Of a stretch of 40,698 nucleotides of DNA, positions 3,537 through 36,159 are shown piece by piece (position 1 is the first letter of the stretch; each line of letters opens with the position of its first letter). Origin of the DNA: a virus; IMG/VR virus record IMGVR_UViG_3300034170_000007, positions 1 to 40,698 of that record. One strand, given 5' to 3'. The translations under genes were made by a program, and so were the position numbers. The notes beneath the pieces were generated by a model, which saw only the letters and a program-made list of their open reading frames with translations, was not told the DNA's origin and searched no databases.

Positions 3537-3565
3537 TTGACTTTCGGAGTTTGTGGTGGTAGGAT
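3537..3565 (+). promoter_or_regulatory. Sigma70-like promoter in front of structured leader RNA copy 1
   Basis: TTGACT, 17-base spacer, TAGGAT. The predicted transcript start is only a few bases before the first conserved block of the structured RNA (GGAGAGA at 3578). Copy 2 has a promoter in the same place, which supports this weaker match. Confidence 0.55.
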
Positions 3566-3577
3566 GTAAAAGCTGAT

Positions 3578-3861
3578 GGAGAGAAATGTCGAATGCACTC
3601 ACCGGCCATCAGGATCAAGCCTATGAAGAGGAAGCTACTGGGCAAGCTGAGTTCTAATCTGATTAAAGCGTAGCGACGACACCGAAAGGTGGAATGATCA
3701 GAATCTGACGCACCCGCGTCTCCAGCCTGTGCTGGCCGAATGCAATCTCAATCTACGAGGTGCAGGGAAGATAGAACCAAGGAAGGTCTAGGCGACTAAT
3801 AATCGTATGGCTTTCCTTGGGACAGTTCTATCTTCCGATACAAAACTCATCTACGAGATAG
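3578..3861 (+). ncRNA. Structured leader RNA, copy 1 (family with copy at 35571)
   Basis: A roughly 284-base non-coding element related to 35571-35850. Shared blocks in order are GGAGAGA-ATGTCG, CTCACCGGCC (3598), ATGAAGAGGA-GCT (3623), AGCGA, GAATC/CAATCT, CCGA-TGC-ATCTCAAT, AGGCGA...TCGTATGGC and AAACTCAT. Between them lie stems that differ from copy 2 but still pair: CACC-GAAA-GGTG (3680-3691), GACGC-ACCC-GCGTC (3707-3720), CCAGC-CTGT-GCTGG (3722-3735), and a 15-bp bipartite stem, GATAGAAC/GTTCTATC plus CAAGGAA/TTCCTTG (3770-3832). TCTACGAG occurs twice (3752, 3850). The GTAT of the last loop could pair with ATAC downstream (pseudoknot). The element starts at a predicted promoter and leads toward the gene at 3955. 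I do not recognise the family. Confidence 0.75.
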
Positions 3862-3954: not shown

Positions 3955-4152
3955 ATGAGTCGATGCAAGTGCTGCGACGTACCACTGAGTAATAATGACA
4001 GTCCTGCGTGGAATAAGCTGGCGAATAAAGAGGAAGACCTCTGTAGCTGGTGCAGGAATCTTGTGTATAATTCGTACACAGAGCGTGAGTACGTGTGCGG
4101 AAGGTATCCAGTTGATGGGTTGACTGGACCGACACCAGTACAAAGTCAATAA
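3955..4152 (+). CDS. Small CxxC zinc-binding protein, 65 aa
   Basis: The N-terminal half holds CKCC (residues 4-7) and CSWC (30-33), which together could bind one zinc ion in a treble-clef or ribbon-like finger; the C-terminal part is unstructured-looking. The ATG has an AGAAGGA site 6 bases upstream. It is the first gene behind structured leader RNA copy 1, with a 93-base AT-rich gap in between that contains an additional AAGGAG followed by a two-codon GTG frame. Function unknown. Confidence 0.78.
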   Translation: MSRCKCCDVPLSNNDSPAWNKLANKEEDLCSWCRNLVYNSYTEREYVCGRYPVDGLTGPTPVQSQ

Positions 4153-4727: not shown

Positions 4728-4817
4728 AGCGGATTGGCAGAGAGGCTTAATGCAACGCTTTGCTAAAGCGTCGGCCCAGAAATGGGTCCGTAGGTTCGAA
4801 TCCTACATCCGCTACCA
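4728..4817 (+). tRNA. tRNA-Ser(GCT)
   Basis: Acceptor AGCGGAT/ATCCGCT, anticodon stem ACGCT/AGCGT with loop TTGCTAA. A long variable arm (class II) is present as expected for serine. T loop TTCGAAT; encoded CCA. Confidence 0.95.
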
Positions 4818-4821
4818 GAAT

Positions 4822-4921
4822 GACCGTGTCGCTCACGGTATGACAAACACTAGACAGTGAGGGTTCTGCTGTCTCTTCATGGAGTGGTATTGAGGCCACT
4901 CATTGGGGTAAGAGTCCCCAC
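4822..4921 (+). other. Inter-tRNA spacer with four consecutive hairpins
   Basis: Four perfect short stems follow one another: ACCGTG/CACGGT, GACAG/CTGTC, GAGTGG/CCACTC and TGGGG/CCCCA. It has no T-loop signature and no CCA, so it is not a normal tRNA. It may be a decayed tRNA, a processing signal or a small RNA. Confidence 0.5.
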
Positions 4922-5525: not shown

Positions 5526-6083
5526 ATGATTTATCTTAAGTGGTTTGTACTGGCTATCTTGGATTTACTGCTGACACTCACTGTATTGGTTGCCGCACCT
5601 ATCATTGCACTCTTCACAAGGGAACAGGCTTATGGAAAGCCTGAGTATACTTGGGGCTGGCTGTGGGGCACATACGACAACCCACCTCAAGGTGACGAAG
5701 GTTATGTAGCTAAGCGTGCAATGTTCTTAAACGCGACAACAGGGATCAAAGGTTATGTGAACCGTGTAATGTGGATGTTCAGAAACCCTCTTTATGGGTT
5801 CTCTCGACGTGCAGCATTGTCTTACAGAGACACATACACAATCGTAACAACTGGAAATCCTGATATCAGCGACAAGTACAAGATTCCAGGAAGTATGACA
5901 ACAAAACTGTATGACGGCAAGAAGCTTATCGGCTTTGAGTACTACCTTATCAAGCCTTGGTCTGAGACAAAAGACCTTCGTATGAGACTCGGATGGAAGA
6001 TCACAACAGAGAAGTTTGCCTTAAACGGTTTCGCTCCTCTGGTTGTTACTGCCAATCCGCTTGATGGCTACGGTAATGACTGA
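5526..6083 (+). CDS. Membrane-anchored phage protein, 185 aa
   Basis: One strongly hydrophobic N-terminal segment (about residues 3-30) anchors the protein in the inner membrane. The remaining 150 residues are soluble, with conserved-looking aromatic blocks (YTWGWLWGTYDNP, RNPLYGFSRR, GFEYYLIKPW). Proteins of this pattern occur as uncharacterised membrane proteins in several large phages. The gene has a GAAGGAGA ribosome site and lies inside the tRNA array, 18 bases after tRNA-Gln, so it is probably transcribed together with the tRNAs. Function unknown. Confidence 0.88.
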   Translation: MIYLKWFVLAILDLLLTLTVLVAAPIIALFTREQAYGKPEYTWGWLWGTYDNPPQGDEGYVAKRAMFLNATTGIKGYVNRVMWMFRNPLYGFSRRAALSYRDTYTIVTTGNPDISDKYKIPGSMTTKLYDGKKLIGFEYYLIKPWSETKDLRMRLGWKITTEKFALNGFAPLVVTANPLDGYGND

Positions 6084-7844: not shown

Positions 7845-7918
7845 CTAGATGAAGCGTTACGGTAGCGTACTGGCTTTGGAAGCCTGTGGCGGTGGTTCGA
7901 CTCCACCCATCTAGACCA
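7845..7918 (+). tRNA. tRNA-Pro(TGG)
   Basis: Acceptor CTAGATG/CATCTAG, anticodon loop TTTGGAA on CTGGC/GCCTG (one mismatch), T arm GGTGG-TTCGACT-CCACC. Encoded CCA. Confidence 0.92.
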
Positions 7919-7922
7919 ATTT

Positions 7923-7996
7923 GGGCTTGTGGTAAAACGGGAATACGCGGTCTTTGCAAGTCCGAGTTCAGGGTTCGACTCCCTGCTGGTCCACCA
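7923..7996 (+). tRNA. tRNA-Ala(TGC)
   Basis: Acceptor GGGCTTG/CTGGTCC with G-U pairs and one mismatch, D stem GTA/TAC, anticodon loop TTTGCAA on CGGTC/GTCCG (one mismatch), T arm CAGGG-TTCGACT-CCCTG. Encoded CCA. Confidence 0.88.
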
Positions 7997-8013
7997 AATA
8001 AGGAGTGCTTAAT

Positions 8014-8169
8014 ATGAGAGTCCGAGTAAAACAAACCAAGAAGAAGTTTGCTATGATGCCATGCGGGTGTTGTGAGAGGGTTTATTACAAGGAGAAGAGT
8101 CTGGATAAGCAGACCCTCAAAGAAGCACTTGAAGAAATAAGCAATACGCTTGACTGTGACGTCGTGTAG
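8014..8169 (+). CDS. Small CxCC protein, 51 aa, overlaps tRNA-His
   Basis: ATG with an AAGGAG site opens a 51-codon frame with a very basic N-terminus (MRVRVKQTKKKF), a PCGCCE cluster at residues 16-21 and a helical C-terminal half that ends CDVV. Part of a zinc or metal site is possible, but only three or four cysteines are present. The last 14 bases of the gene, including its TAG stop, are the first 14 bases of tRNA-His, so transcript processing at the tRNA 5' end would remove the stop codon from the mRNA. Confidence 0.7.
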   Translation: MRVRVKQTKKKFAMMPCGCCERVYYKEKSLDKQTLKEALEEISNTLDCDVV

Positions 8170-8229
8170 TCTGGGACTACCTTCCGGTTGTGACCCGGTT
8201 GTTAGAGATCGAAACTCTGCGTCACCCCA
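8156..8229 (+). tRNA. tRNA-His(GTG)
   Basis: Acceptor GTGACGT/GCGTCAC, D stem GTAG/CTAC, anticodon stem TCCGG/CCGGT with loop TTGTGAC. Discriminator C73 as needed for HisRS; the base before position 1 is T rather than the encoded G-1 usual in bacteria. Encoded CCA. The 5' end overlaps the gene at 8014. Confidence 0.92.
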
Positions 8230-8235
8230 AATTAT

Positions 8236-8320
8236 GGGCCAGTGGTGGAACTGGTATACACAGCAGTCTTAGAAACTGCCGCCGAAAGGATTGAGGGATC
8301 GTGACCCTCTTGGCCCACCA
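8236..8320 (+). tRNA. tRNA-Leu(TAG)
   Basis: Acceptor GGGCCAG/TTGGCCC, D region GTGGAACTGGTATACAC nearly identical to tRNA-Leu(TAA) at 5121, anticodon stem GCAGT/ACTGC with loop CTTAGAA. Class II variable arm, encoded CCA. The two Leu tRNAs look like duplicates. Confidence 0.95.
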
Positions 8321-8326
8321 AATTAT

Positions 8327-8402
8327 GTCCTTCTTGCCTGAGCGGCTAGGGTGCTGATTGCAAACCAGTAATAGATCGGTTCAACTCCGATAGAAGGCTC
8401 CA
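8327..8402 (+). tRNA. tRNA-Cys(GCA), irregular acceptor
   Basis: Anticodon loop TTGCAAA on GCTGA/CCAGT, T arm ATCGG-TTCAACT-CCGAT, discriminator T and encoded CCA fit tRNA-Cys. The acceptor pairs as CCTTCT/AGAAGG with a bulged T near the 5' end, so the 5' boundary is uncertain by a base. Confidence 0.82.
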
Positions 8403-8407
8403 AACAT

Positions 8408-8483
8408 GCGTGATTCGTATAGAGGTCTAATACTCTCGGCTTCCACCCGAGTAACCAGGGTTCGACTCCCTGATCCCGCACCA
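8408..8483 (+). tRNA. tRNA-Gly(TCC)
   Basis: Acceptor GCGTGAT/ATCCCGC with one mismatch, D stem GTAT/ATAC, anticodon stem CTCGG/CCGAG with loop CTTCCAC. T arm CAGGG-TTCGACT-CCCTG; encoded CCA. Confidence 0.92.
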
Positions 8484-8485
8484 AT

Positions 8486-8558
8486 TTTGAAGATGGTGGT
8501 TAAATCCCAACCCCAAGCGGTTAAATGCACCGGCTTGCGATTCAGTGAGAGTATCTTC
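8486..8558 (+). other. tRNA-sized element without T arm or CCA
   Basis: An 8-bp stem, TTGAAGAT/ATCTTCAA, encloses a TGG/CCA and a CAAGC/GCTTG hairpin. The size and outline recall a tRNA, but the T-loop motif and CCA are missing. Decayed tRNA or unrelated small RNA. Confidence 0.4.
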
Positions 8559-8568
8559 AATCTCTTTT

Positions 8569-8644
8569 GCATTCTAAGCTAACTAGGTAGAAGCACTGGC
8601 TTGAAACCCCAGATGACGTGGATCGATACCACGAGAATGCACCA
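8569..8644 (+). tRNA. tRNA-Phe(GAA)
   Basis: Acceptor GCATTCT/AGAATGC, D stem GCT/AGC, anticodon loop TTGAAAC on CTGGC/CCCAG (one mismatch), T arm CGTGG-ATCGATA-CCACG. Encoded CCA. Last tRNA of the array. Confidence 0.9.
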
Positions 8645-8657
8645 ATAAAATTAGTCA

Positions 8658-8725
8658 CATGTTGGTTCGATTCCAACCTCAGCGCCCTGGTGCGTTAGAG
8701 TAGCATTGATGGTTCATGCAGGCTA
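8658..8725 (+). pseudogene. Scrambled tRNA fragments
   Basis: A good T arm (GTTGG-TTCGATT-CCAAC) is followed, not preceded, by a D-arm-like GCAT-TGATGGTTC-ATGC that is nearly identical to the D arm of the tRNA-Met at 5042. No anticodon arm is present. It reads as juxtaposed pieces of lost tRNA genes. Confidence 0.5.
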
Positions 8726-8794: not shown

Positions 8795-8820
8795 ACCCTC
8801 CCAGTGAGGGTTTTCCTGTT
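8795..8820 (+). terminator. Intrinsic terminator at end of tRNA region
   Basis: ACCCTC-CCAGT-GAGGGT followed by TTTCCTGTTT. It separates the tRNA array from the structural module. Confidence 0.8.
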
Positions 8821-8859: not shown

Positions 8860-9081
8860 ATGCTTTCTATTGACGACCAATACAAACTTGTTGCAAAGCT
8901 TGGCCTTATTGAAGGCATCAAAGCTGGTGCATTCGCTGACTCAACAGCTAGCAAAGCCGCTCTAGCAGCACTAGTCGCTGTAACATCCCCAAACGCTACT
9001 GACCTTCCAACAGCTCTGACTCTTGTAAATGAAATCAAGACTAAGTTGAATGCTGTTATCGCAGCTCTAAAAACTGCTTGA
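8860..9081 (+). CDS. Head-fibre-like or small structural protein, 73 aa
   Basis: A 73-residue helical protein. The C-terminal pattern (DLPTALTLVNEIKTKLNAVIAALKTA) resembles the conserved end of phage head-fibre/head-associated proteins, in which '-D-x-x-x-x-V-N-x-L-x-x-x-L-N-x-x-I-x-A-L' recurs. The position immediately upstream of the terminase, behind a terminator, fits a structural gene. Its stop codon lies within the -35 element of a promoter (9078) for the terminase operon. Identification is tentative. Confidence 0.6.
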   Translation: MLSIDDQYKLVAKLGLIEGIKAGAFADSTASKAALAALVAVTSPNATDLPTALTLVNEIKTKLNAVIAALKTA

Positions 9082-9107
9082 CATGTATTTTCAATAAATG
9101 TTATGCT
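9078..9107 (+). promoter_or_regulatory. Upstream promoter of structural operon
   Basis: TTGACA, then TTATGC after 17 bases or TATGCT after 18. Its -35 overlaps the stop codon of the preceding gene. It is in tandem with the better promoter at 9114. Confidence 0.5.
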
Positions 9108-9113
9108 TAGGGG

Positions 9114-9141
9114 TTGACAACTGTCAATTCCAATGTACAAT
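9114..9141 (+). promoter_or_regulatory. Main promoter of structural (terminase) operon
   Basis: TTGACA, 16-base spacer, TACAAT: the best sigma70-like match in the window. No other promoter this strong is seen until the lysis genes are passed, so it may drive a long late transcript. Confidence 0.82.
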
Positions 9142-34318: not shown

Positions 34319-35467
34319 TTATTCCTCCTTCAGCAAGTATGCGTTGCTGATAGCTTTGAACGAGAAGTCACGCTTAGTGCTCTTGTAGACGAAGCCTTCA
34401 CGGAACTTACCTTTGACGCCACTTGGACCTTCAGCACGAAGCAGAAGCTCAGCAACAGTCGGAGCTTTGAGCACGCCAGTGTAATTGACTGGGACGTGTT
34501 TAACACCCTGGTCAGTACAGAATTTGATGCGTTCAGCAGGAAGCATGTAGCGCTGTTCATCAATCAGGAAAACGTCGTAGCAGAAGAATGTGTTATTGTC
34601 CAGACCTTCAAAGTTCTTCTGGATAGACGGACCACACATTTCACCCTGAATGGCGATGTTACGGCCATCACGGCGAATAGCTTCAATCAGTCCAGCTTCT
34701 GTCACCATCTGAGTGAAGGCATTGTCGTCCTTCTTGATCACACGCTCCCACTTGCAGCGATGTACAGCCATGCCGCGATTCCACCACTGATCAAACCAGC
34801 TACGAATAGTAGAAACCAGAGAACGTTTTTCGTCCTCCATCCGAAAGCCCACGTTACGGCTAGCCACACCAGCCACCCCGTCACGAACAAACGCAGTGAG
34901 AGAGCTTCCGTCCAGCTTAAAAGATTCTTCAAATTCTTCTCCATCGGCCACAGCCTTCAAGTATAGGTTAGTGATGTTCTGTACGCGAGTCTGATCAGTC
35001 TTTGGTACAAACTTAGGGAAACCCAATGCAGACTTACCAGTCTTGACGCCAGTGCCACCAGTGTTATTCATGCTGGCTTCTTCAGCCTTCTCATACTTGA
35101 CAACACCCAAGAAGTCTGTCATGTCATAGCCAACCTCTGCGTTAAGGCCAGTTACAGACAATGGGATCAAGTAGCCTTGAGAAAGTTGCTTACGCAGCTT
35201 CATGGTTTTTACACGAGCGTGGGTACGTCCATCTACGTTGTGGAGCAGTTTAGAACTCCAGTTGGCTGCATCAGCGAAATAAGGACGCTCTGTGTCTAGC
35301 AGAGAATCTACCTCAAAATATACAGCTTTGGTGAGTGCGGGCTCGTACAAACCCTTCTGCACGACCACCTGCCAGCCGCCAATGAGAGCTAGCTCAATGC
35401 GGTCAGCACCTTCAATAGGAAGCAGTTGATCGATCAGTACGATACGAGCGAGGGAACGTTCAGCCAT
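34319..35467 (-). CDS. RNA ligase, DRB0094 (Rnl5-like) family
   Basis: ATP-dependent ligase that seals RNA nicks. Of 382 residues, the N-terminal 170 form the OB-fold-like extension of this family; then come motif I FKLDGSS with nucleophile Lys184, motif Ia/III regions (NVGFRMEDE; AIQGEMCGP at 272-280), motif IV REGFVYKS (356-363) and motif V SFKAISN with Lys371. The ATG at 35467 has AAGGAG upstream; the frame extends past the promoter and is not used. A tRNA- or RNA-repair role fits a phage with many tRNAs, by inference. Own promoter at 35499-35526. Confidence 0.9.
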   Translation of the reverse strand: MAERSLARIVLIDQLLPIEGADRIELALIGGWQVVVQKGLYEPALTKAVYFEVDSLLDTERPYFADAANWSSKLLHNVDGRTHARVKTMKLRKQLSQGYLIPLSVTGLNAEVGYDMTDFLGVVKYEKAEEASMNNTGGTGVKTGKSALGFPKFVPKTDQTRVQNITNLYLKAVADGEEFEESFKLDGSSLTAFVRDGVAGVASRNVGFRMEDEKRSLVSTIRSWFDQWWNRGMAVHRCKWERVIKKDDNAFTQMVTEAGLIEAIRRDGRNIAIQGEMCGPSIQKNFEGLDNNTFFCYDVFLIDEQRYMLPAERIKFCTDQGVKHVPVNYTGVLKAPTVAELLLRAEGPSGVKGKFREGFVYKSTKRDFSFKAISNAYLLKEE

Positions 35468-35498
35468 TTTTAAATCTCCTTGTGTTTTGATGTGGTGG

Positions 35499-35530: not shown

Positions 35531-35558
35531 TTGACAGAAAAACTTTTCATGGTAATCT
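35531..35558 (+). promoter_or_regulatory. Promoter in front of structured leader RNA copy 2
   Basis: TTGACA, 16-base spacer, TAATCT. The predicted start is about 6-12 bases upstream of the first conserved RNA block. Confidence 0.7.
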
Positions 35559-35570
35559 GCACACATCGCA

Positions 35571-35850
35571 GGAGAGACATGTCGGGCGAAAGCCTCCCTC
35601 ACCGGCCTGCGGGAGTACACCCCATGAAGAGGATGCTGTAGGGGTCACTGAGGTTGAATGAGAGAACAGTGCAGCGATGACCTCTGTAGAGGGAAGGCTC
35701 TCAATCTATAGCGTCCCATGACGCCGACTTGCGATCTCAATTTTGGATAGCAAAGGATAAACCTCAAGGCATGTCGAGGCGATTCAGTTCGTATGGCAAG
35801 CCTTGGGATAGGTTTATCTCGACAATACGAAACTCATTTTGGATAGGAGC
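35571..35850 (+). ncRNA. Structured leader RNA, copy 2 (family with copy at 3578)
   Basis: Carries the same ordered blocks as copy 1: GGAGAGA-ATGTCG, CTCACCGGCC (35598), ATGAAGAGGA-GCT (35624), AGCGA, CAATCT, CCGA-TTGC-ATCTCAAT, AGGCGA...TCGTATGGC and AAACTCAT. Its stems have other sequences yet remain paired: CACTG/CAGTG, CCTC-TGTA-GAGG (35681-35692), GCGTC-CCAT-GACGC (35711-35724), GATAAACCT/AGGTTTATC with CAAGGC/GCCTTG (35756-35818). TTTTGGATAG occurs twice (35741, 35837), where copy 1 has TCTACGAG twice. TTCGTAT of the loop pairs with ATACGAA downstream. The last repeat runs into the ribosome site of the DUF4326 gene, so the RNA could control its translation. Confidence 0.78.
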
Positions 35851-35856
35851 GAAGAT

Positions 35857-36159
35857 ATGTGTCAAGTGGTAAATAGGAACCACATGTCTGTGAACATGAA
35901 TGATCCTGACATTGTGTATATAGGAAGGGGCAGCATCTGGGGCAATCCTTTCCACATAGGTGGCTCTGGCAGACGTACTCGTGAACAGGTGATAGAAATG
36001 TACAGAAAATATCTGTGGGAGCGCCTACGTGTTGGGTATTTCACACTTGATATGCTGAAAGCTCTTGACGGGAAGCGACTTGCTTGCTATTGTGCTCCCA
36101 AGCAATGTCATGGCGACATTATAAAACGAGCCGTCCAGTGGGCGAAGGAGCAACAGTGA
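35857..36159 (+). CDS. DUF4326 protein, 100 aa
   Basis: The pattern DIVYIGRGSIWGNPF, TREQVIEMYRKYL and LDGKRLACYCAPKQCHGDII is the DUF4326 family in full; these small proteins have a Cys/His cluster and unknown biochemical role. ATG-35857 follows AGGAG inside the end of leader RNA copy 2. An earlier in-frame ATG at 35839 lies within the RNA repeat and has no ribosome site. The stop overlaps the next start. Confidence 0.9.
   Translation: MCQVVNRNHMSVNMNDPDIVYIGRGSIWGNPFHIGGSGRRTREQVIEMYRKYLWERLRVGYFTLDMLKALDGKRLACYCAPKQCHGDIIKRAVQWAKEQQ

Follow-up and report, generated by a model that had tools for sequence, protein, structure and literature searches.

Genes and features of the locus

The window analysed here, the whole 40,698-nt stretch (40.7 kb) of the IMG/VR record IMGVR_UViG_3300034170_000007, is by BLAST a fragment of a Pseudomonas myophage near PPSC2, REC and the KIL phages. 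It carries two non-coding stretches with shared sequence blocks (copy 1 and copy 2), which were found where the original prediction had placed them and each of which leads, as it had said, into a small plus-strand gene. The main features are as follows.

3537–3565, plus strand: sigma-70 promoter of copy 1, TTGACT-17-TAGGAT, with the -10 box ending 7 nt before helix P1
3572–3857, plus strand: copy 1 RNA element, from the inferred transcription start to the end of repeat R2
3955–4152, plus strand: first gene after copy 1, encoding a 65 aa CxxC protein (phrog_10364; sub-threshold match to Zn_ribbon_2)
34319–35470, minus strand: divergent RNA ligase gene beside copy 2 (PF09414 with a PHA02142 OB domain)
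35531–35558, plus strand: sigma-70 promoter of copy 2, TTGACA-16-TAATCT
about 35565–35843, plus strand: copy 2 RNA element
35857–36159, plus strand: first gene after copy 2, encoding a DUF4326 protein (E = 1.2e-22)

The CxxC gene is followed by 21 predicted tRNA genes and then by all structural and lysis genes, everything from 3955 to 34101 lying on the plus strand; copy 2 heads the next plus-strand block. In PAK_P4 the block after copy 2 comprises primase/helicase, DNA polymerase and ribonucleotide reductase genes and several annotated terminators, and the terminator list published for JG004 includes intrinsic terminators inside these gene blocks (PMC3120641). The RNA ligase gene is also found beside copy 2 in KIL3, REC, PAK_P4, UAVern and Bitten; it is a neighbour of copy 2, and any link to the RNA would be putative. 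An ARAGORN tmRNA call at 7901–8668 (plus strand) overlaps several of the tRNAs, has no Rfam support and is probably false.

Identification of a new RNA family

Copy 1 and copy 2 are members of one structured RNA family and can be aligned with each other across about 280 nt. Single-sequence folding of the two copies is weak (z = -2.9 and -1.1), so that the two of them alone prove little, and the claim had to rest on relatives. A distant BLAST search matched copy 1 in 181 phage records (180 of them Pseudomonas phages), many of them at two places, and copy 2 in 34 phage records. Pattern scans of IMG/VR added many more members, while the matches to the 3' anchor pattern were for the most part chance matches within genes. 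From these we assembled alignment A4 of 39 distinct sequences, which are related to each other and correspond to an effective number of about 17. Distant members were included in a whole-family alignment for the 5' domain only, and the E-values of the covariance model are rough.

A search with the Rfam 15 covariance models at gathering and relaxed thresholds gave no match, the best chance match being SCARNA18 (E = 0.2). The literature searched on PAK_P3, PAK_P4, JG004, the KIL phages, K5, Adele, phiPMW, put and Vandenendeviridae does not describe the element and reports instead 41-nt promoter repeats, other small RNAs and terminators. The original prediction, which did not recognise the family, had proposed to stand or fall by homologues in related phages, significant covariation and Rfam: homologues are many, covariation is strong (see below) and no Rfam match explains the element. 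The family of about 285-nt pseudoknotted leader RNAs is new and, in the literature searched, previously undescribed.

In several GenBank records annotated hypothetical proteins overlap the element; these are probably spurious calls:

L002, 2541–2624: KIL3_0035
L009, 1601–1831: 16Q_075c
L016, 1445–1780: hypothetical protein of Bitten
L143, 3822–4211: phiPMW gp181

One member, which has a TTGACT promoter and is accompanied by a CxxC gene, lies on a contig of a Thaumarchaeota MAG (JAHFOH010000003.1), which is probably a wrongly binned phage contig.

Fold and covariation

The structure was derived by hand and consists of 58 pairs in 12 helices, including pseudoknots. Its elements in copy 1, all on the plus strand, are listed below.

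3573–3612: P1 and P1a region (P1, 3573–3579/3606–3612; invariant P1a, 3581–3583/3598–3600)
3619–3621/3641–3643: P2, interleaved with P3 and thus forming a pseudoknot
3634–3638/3670–3674: P3, in a pseudoknot with P2
3646–3648/3667–3669: P3a, which stacks on P3 and is crossed by P4
3658–3663/3697–3702: P4, crossing P3a
3680–3683/3688–3691: P5 hairpin
3722–3735: P6 hairpin, with two-sided changes in all five pairs
3770–3832: long hairpin P8 (3770–3777/3825–3832, 3778–3782/3815–3819 and 3785–3787/3810–3812)
3793–3795/3803–3805: P9, apical on P8

In addition, a loose hairpin, P7, presents the repeat R1 described below. P1 is paired in 99.6% of cells and shows two-sided changes in six of its seven pairs. 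Its region holds the motif GAGANAUGUC...CUCACCG, in which GAGANAUGUC and CUCACCG form an invariant internal loop; P8 carries a second conserved internal loop, GUCUUAGGC/GUAUGGC. Many of the unpaired bases are invariant.

Counted on A4, 95.3% of the pair cells are paired, compared to 73.7% in shuffled and 35–43% in slid alignments. Two-sided changes occur at 45 of the 58 pairs, and there are 488 double-change cells (145.5 in shuffles). The covariation score is 0.584, compared to 0.182 for shuffled and 0.055–0.110 for slid alignments. Comparison of 39 distinct homologues puts the structure beyond doubt, which bears out the selection on a folded RNA that had been proposed from the two copies alone. 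P3 is confirmed independently, since it was left out of the covariance model and yet forms, with differing sequences, in most of the distant members. The double changes quoted in the original prediction are real, namely GATAGAAC/GTTCTATC versus GATAAACC/GGTTTATC in P8, CAAGG/CCTTG in P8b and CACC/GGTG versus CCTC/GAGG in P5, yet the hairpins concerned make up a minority of the structure; the pseudoknots, the alternative pairing, the direct repeats and the members in other phage lineages go beyond it.

A leader peptide with a Shine-Dalgarno sequence and an AUG after GGAGAGANAUG was considered and rejected: frames and lengths differ among members, and in L015 the frame stops after three codons. 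The GGAGAGANAUG motif is paired within P1 and P1a.

One strand with two alternative partners

The 5' strand of P8 (B) is complementary not only to the 3' strand (C) but also to two upstream segments (A1 and A2). The segments, all on the plus strand, are:

3651–3654: A1, alternative partner of B (3774–3777)
3703–3705: A2, alternative partner of B (3770–3772)
3770–3777: B, which forms the 5' side of P8 and is complementary to A1 and A2 as well
3825–3832: C, 3' side of P8, competing with A1 and A2 for B
35652–35655: A1 of copy 2 (GGTT)
35756–35763: B of copy 2, GATAAACC
35811–35818: C of copy 2, GGTTTATC

A1:B is paired in 95.9% of cells, with two-sided changes in three of four pairs, and A2:B in 98.3%. 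Taken jointly, the A1/A2:B pairings are formed in 97% of cells with 49 double-change cells (16.9 in shuffles) and are as consistent as B:C. Thus, two mutually exclusive structures share strand B, both of them covary, and the relation of B to two partners is shown by covariation. The A–B complementarity is kept in distant members, for example as GUCU/AGAC in L132 and GAGUC/GACUC in L121. A triplex reading of A, B and C was rejected in favour of alternative Watson-Crick pairing, since the strands are arranged antiparallel and include all four bases.

When copy 1 is truncated after B, the predicted fold contains A1:B, enclosing P4, P5, P6 and R1. By fold energy, in models that cannot represent pseudoknots, P8 dominates the full RNA in 35 of the 39 sequences and A1:B dominates the truncated RNA in just nine of the 39, so that this test of a switch is partly supportive. 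An order of folding from A:B to B:C, and its energetics, are thus no more than suggested.

Direct repeats that covary by identity

The element also contains a direct repeat, R1 and R2, all four instances of which in the window lie on the plus strand:

3751–3758: R1, ATCTACGA, a covarying direct repeat in hairpin P7
3849–3856: R2, ATCTACGA, the second member of the repeat
35740–35747: R1 of copy 2, ATTTTGGA
35836–35843: R2 of copy 2, ATTTTGGA, directly 5' of the Shine-Dalgarno sequence of the next gene

R1 lies in the loop of P7, and R2 directly follows P8. The identity of R1 and R2 spans exactly 8 nt in 35 of the 39 near members (shuffle mean 5.4), 9 nt in three copy-2 sequences of the PAK type and 9–16 nt in most distant members; in three of 11 distant members (L122, L140 and the Vibrio phage) the exact-match repeat is not above shuffles. 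The sequence of R itself is highly variable (ATCTACGA, AGCGTCAT, ATTTTGGA, ATCAGAAT and others), and R1 and R2 vary together by identity, flanking bases included. Within one phage, R of copy 1 is unlike R of copy 2, which makes a protein that reads R in trans unlikely. Among the aligned segments of the RNA and its flanks, none covaries as a complement of R, which leaves the DNA template (or antisense RNA) as its sole complement in cis. A resemblance of R to the D-arm of tmRNA or tRNA was dropped, being present in some members only.

In two members, L028 (8286–8446, minus strand) and L018 (1632–1786), the R1 hairpin is enlarged by inserted hairpins or repeated pieces of R; this suggests that the R1 loop tolerates growth while R is kept.

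Promoters, copy number and distribution

A sigma-70 promoter precedes the element in 37 of the 39 sequences, and its -10 box ends 7 (25 sequences), 8 (11) or 9 nt (one) before the first P1 pair. This spacing places the start of transcription, with high probability, at the first base of P1. Both stretches had been predicted to start a few bases after a promoter: the promoters are present, and the probable beginnings of the RNA, about 3572 and about 35565, lie a few bases before the positions that had been given. The two sequences without a sigma-70 promoter (L023 and L036) have TTCTAA-N10-ATTAG in common at the same place, which is perhaps a phage-specific promoter. In PAK_P4 a second sigma-70-like promoter (L021, 4335–4363) directly follows the copy-2 element.

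Each of the 20 near-complete relatives (92–102 kb) carries the element exactly twice, on one strand. The copy-1 and copy-2 sequences fall into two clades (support 100/100), in which only L036, a long branch, is misplaced; the two clades are old. No family member was found by the covariance model in PAK_P3, which belongs to a sister genus.

Outside this group, the element heads the primase/helicase block of phiPMW, behind a sigma-70 promoter. In Vibrio siphophages and metagenomic phages it precedes the terminase genes: in Vibrio phage MG592457/Vibrio breoganii phage 1.082.O it lies just before TerS and after Ref and RusA-type genes, in L139 it lies 5' of TerS and TerL, and in L138 NinG, MazG and helicase genes come first, in that order, then the element, then terminase and portal, with no Q-sized gene unaccounted for. 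In lambda-type phages, Q and its site sit between the ninR-like genes and terminase. In L122 and L123 the element is found among early genes, ahead of a helicase gene, and lacks a clear promoter immediately 5' of it. In the distant phages L138 (about 4760–4850) and L141 (about 5765–5850), a strong hairpin resembling an intrinsic terminator, with internal structure inside a long stem and a T-run after it, directly precedes the element.

Proposed function

Across lineages the transcription start and the position at the head of an operon stay constant, whereas the neighbouring genes differ; the parsimonious reading is therefore a cis-acting leader linked to transcription itself. By analogy with HK022 put, the element probably controls how far the host RNA polymerase reads; that it is a leader acting on this polymerase, put-like in its working and not homologous to put, is a tentative proposal, which we hold at somewhat less than an even chance. 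We infer the action on the polymerase, the order of folding and any role of R1 and R2. Transcription from the sigma-70 promoter would start at the first base of P1, and the 5' end would for this reason be locked into a stem. The nascent RNA would fold as the host RNA polymerase leaves the promoter, B pairing first with A1 and A2 and then being captured by C to form P8, which would amount to a built-in co-transcriptional rearrangement. The folded RNA may then modify or hold the elongating polymerase, and the modified polymerase would read through the long late or middle operon downstream.

Such a role fits the genomic positions, and the occurrence of the element at operon heads in unrelated gene orders argues for it. 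Terminator-like sites in the window are modestly above shuffles; as proof of antitermination this enrichment is weak and does not decide the matter. Against the proposal, a terminator at 8795 is followed by promoter-like sites at 9078–9141, and the structural genes could thus be independent of copy 1; the members in L122 and L123 are without a clear promoter; R1 and R2 have no obvious role in antitermination; and the relative K5 has been reported to have an RNA polymerase gene of its own (PMC5945682).

Alternatively, the element could be a regulatory leader resembling an attenuator or riboswitch, in which a ligand, a protein or phage development picks A:B or B:C and thereby adjusts how the first genes are transcribed or translated; we regard this as rather unlikely. 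The conserved bistable strand, the A1:B fold of the RNA truncated at B together with the dominance of P8 in most full-length RNAs, the many invariant unpaired bases and the abutment of R2 on the Shine-Dalgarno sequence in many copy-2 members are all consistent with it. However, no U-run or terminator follows P8, which disfavours a classical terminator riboswitch, and the start site is not consistently sequestered, so that the expression platform expected of a riboswitch or attenuator was not found. Moreover, the downstream genes vary (CxxC protein, DUF4326, helicase, terminase), the distance to the first gene differs between the copies, the gene after copy 1 beginning about 100 nt past R2, and few of the truncated RNAs favour A1:B.

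The two-partner strand and the repeats together could also belong to a new class of RNA device, in which the nascent leader switches from A:B to C:B while exchanging R1 for R2, with R either pairing with DNA at the polymerase in the course of transcription or supplying the successive substrates for an RNA reaction. We consider this an unlikely conjecture; neither use of repeats has a known precedent.

A stable non-coding RNA cut from the mRNA and acting in trans on polymerase, ribosome or RNA, its place at an operon head being incidental, appears quite unlikely. The 5' end locked in P1 and the large, intricate fold would suit such an RNA, and late small RNAs are abundant in the related phage PAK_P3 (PMC4933390), but the family is absent from PAK_P3, neither a terminator nor a processing site was found beyond R2, and R differs between the copies of one phage. 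Two copies are also retained at two operon heads, which suggests action in cis.

Self-processing by a ribozyme or splicing-like reaction, with R1 and R2 as alternative substrates presented to one core via A:B and C:B and the B-to-C segment excised or the RNA cut, would account for the identity covariation of the repeats and for an A1/A2–B–C relation that presents the stretches before R1 and before R2 alike. This reading is decidedly improbable: the RNA ligase gene that might be enlisted for it lies beside copy 2 and not beside copy 1, no R-complementary strand was found in cis, and no similarity to a known ribozyme was seen. Finally, a leader that guards the long mRNA from decay with no action on the polymerase agrees with the placement of P1 at the extreme 5' end of the transcript and is very improbable, as a simple hairpin would suffice and the pseudoknots, invariant loops, bistable strand and repeats would be left unexplained.

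In summary, a large structured RNA family is present and unannotated in well over a hundred sequenced phages, many of them P. aeruginosa phages of the PAK_P1 type. Should the element act on the host RNA polymerase, whole operons would be under the control of a protein-free RNA much more elaborate than HK022 put, employed also at the lambda-type Q position, and this could explain how long blocks are transcribed in phages that have few promoters and contain several internal terminators. The A/B/C switch and the repeats that covary by identity pose a clear and testable mechanistic puzzle.

Comparison with known systems

GOLLD and ROOL are likewise large, intricate, phage-borne RNAs near tRNA clusters; no Rfam model matched the present element at a useful score, and its position differs in being tied to a promoter. 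The sRNA1 and sRNA2 of PAK_P3 are also non-coding and encoded near tRNA genes in related Pseudomonas myophages, but they are free, late RNAs of about 80–135 nt. In lambda, qut is a short stretch of DNA recognised by a protein. Distant members of the family occupy the corresponding position, between ninR-like genes and terminase, whereas here the element is an RNA and no Q-sized gene was seen in L138.

In arrangement the element resembles putL and putR of HK022, which also occur as two copies per phage just after phage promoters and head long operons, in phages that use the host RNA polymerase. The two put sites follow the early promoters and act without protein over at least 10 kb (PMC9378689). 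A covariance-model search of HK022 gave no match (best 5.4 bits), and no sequence or fold is shared with put; given this and the mismatch in size and fold, the element is not a member of the put family. Whereas put is about 70 nt long and consists of two stem-loops (PMC9378689), the element described here is about 285 nt long and combines pseudoknots, a bistable strand and direct repeats.
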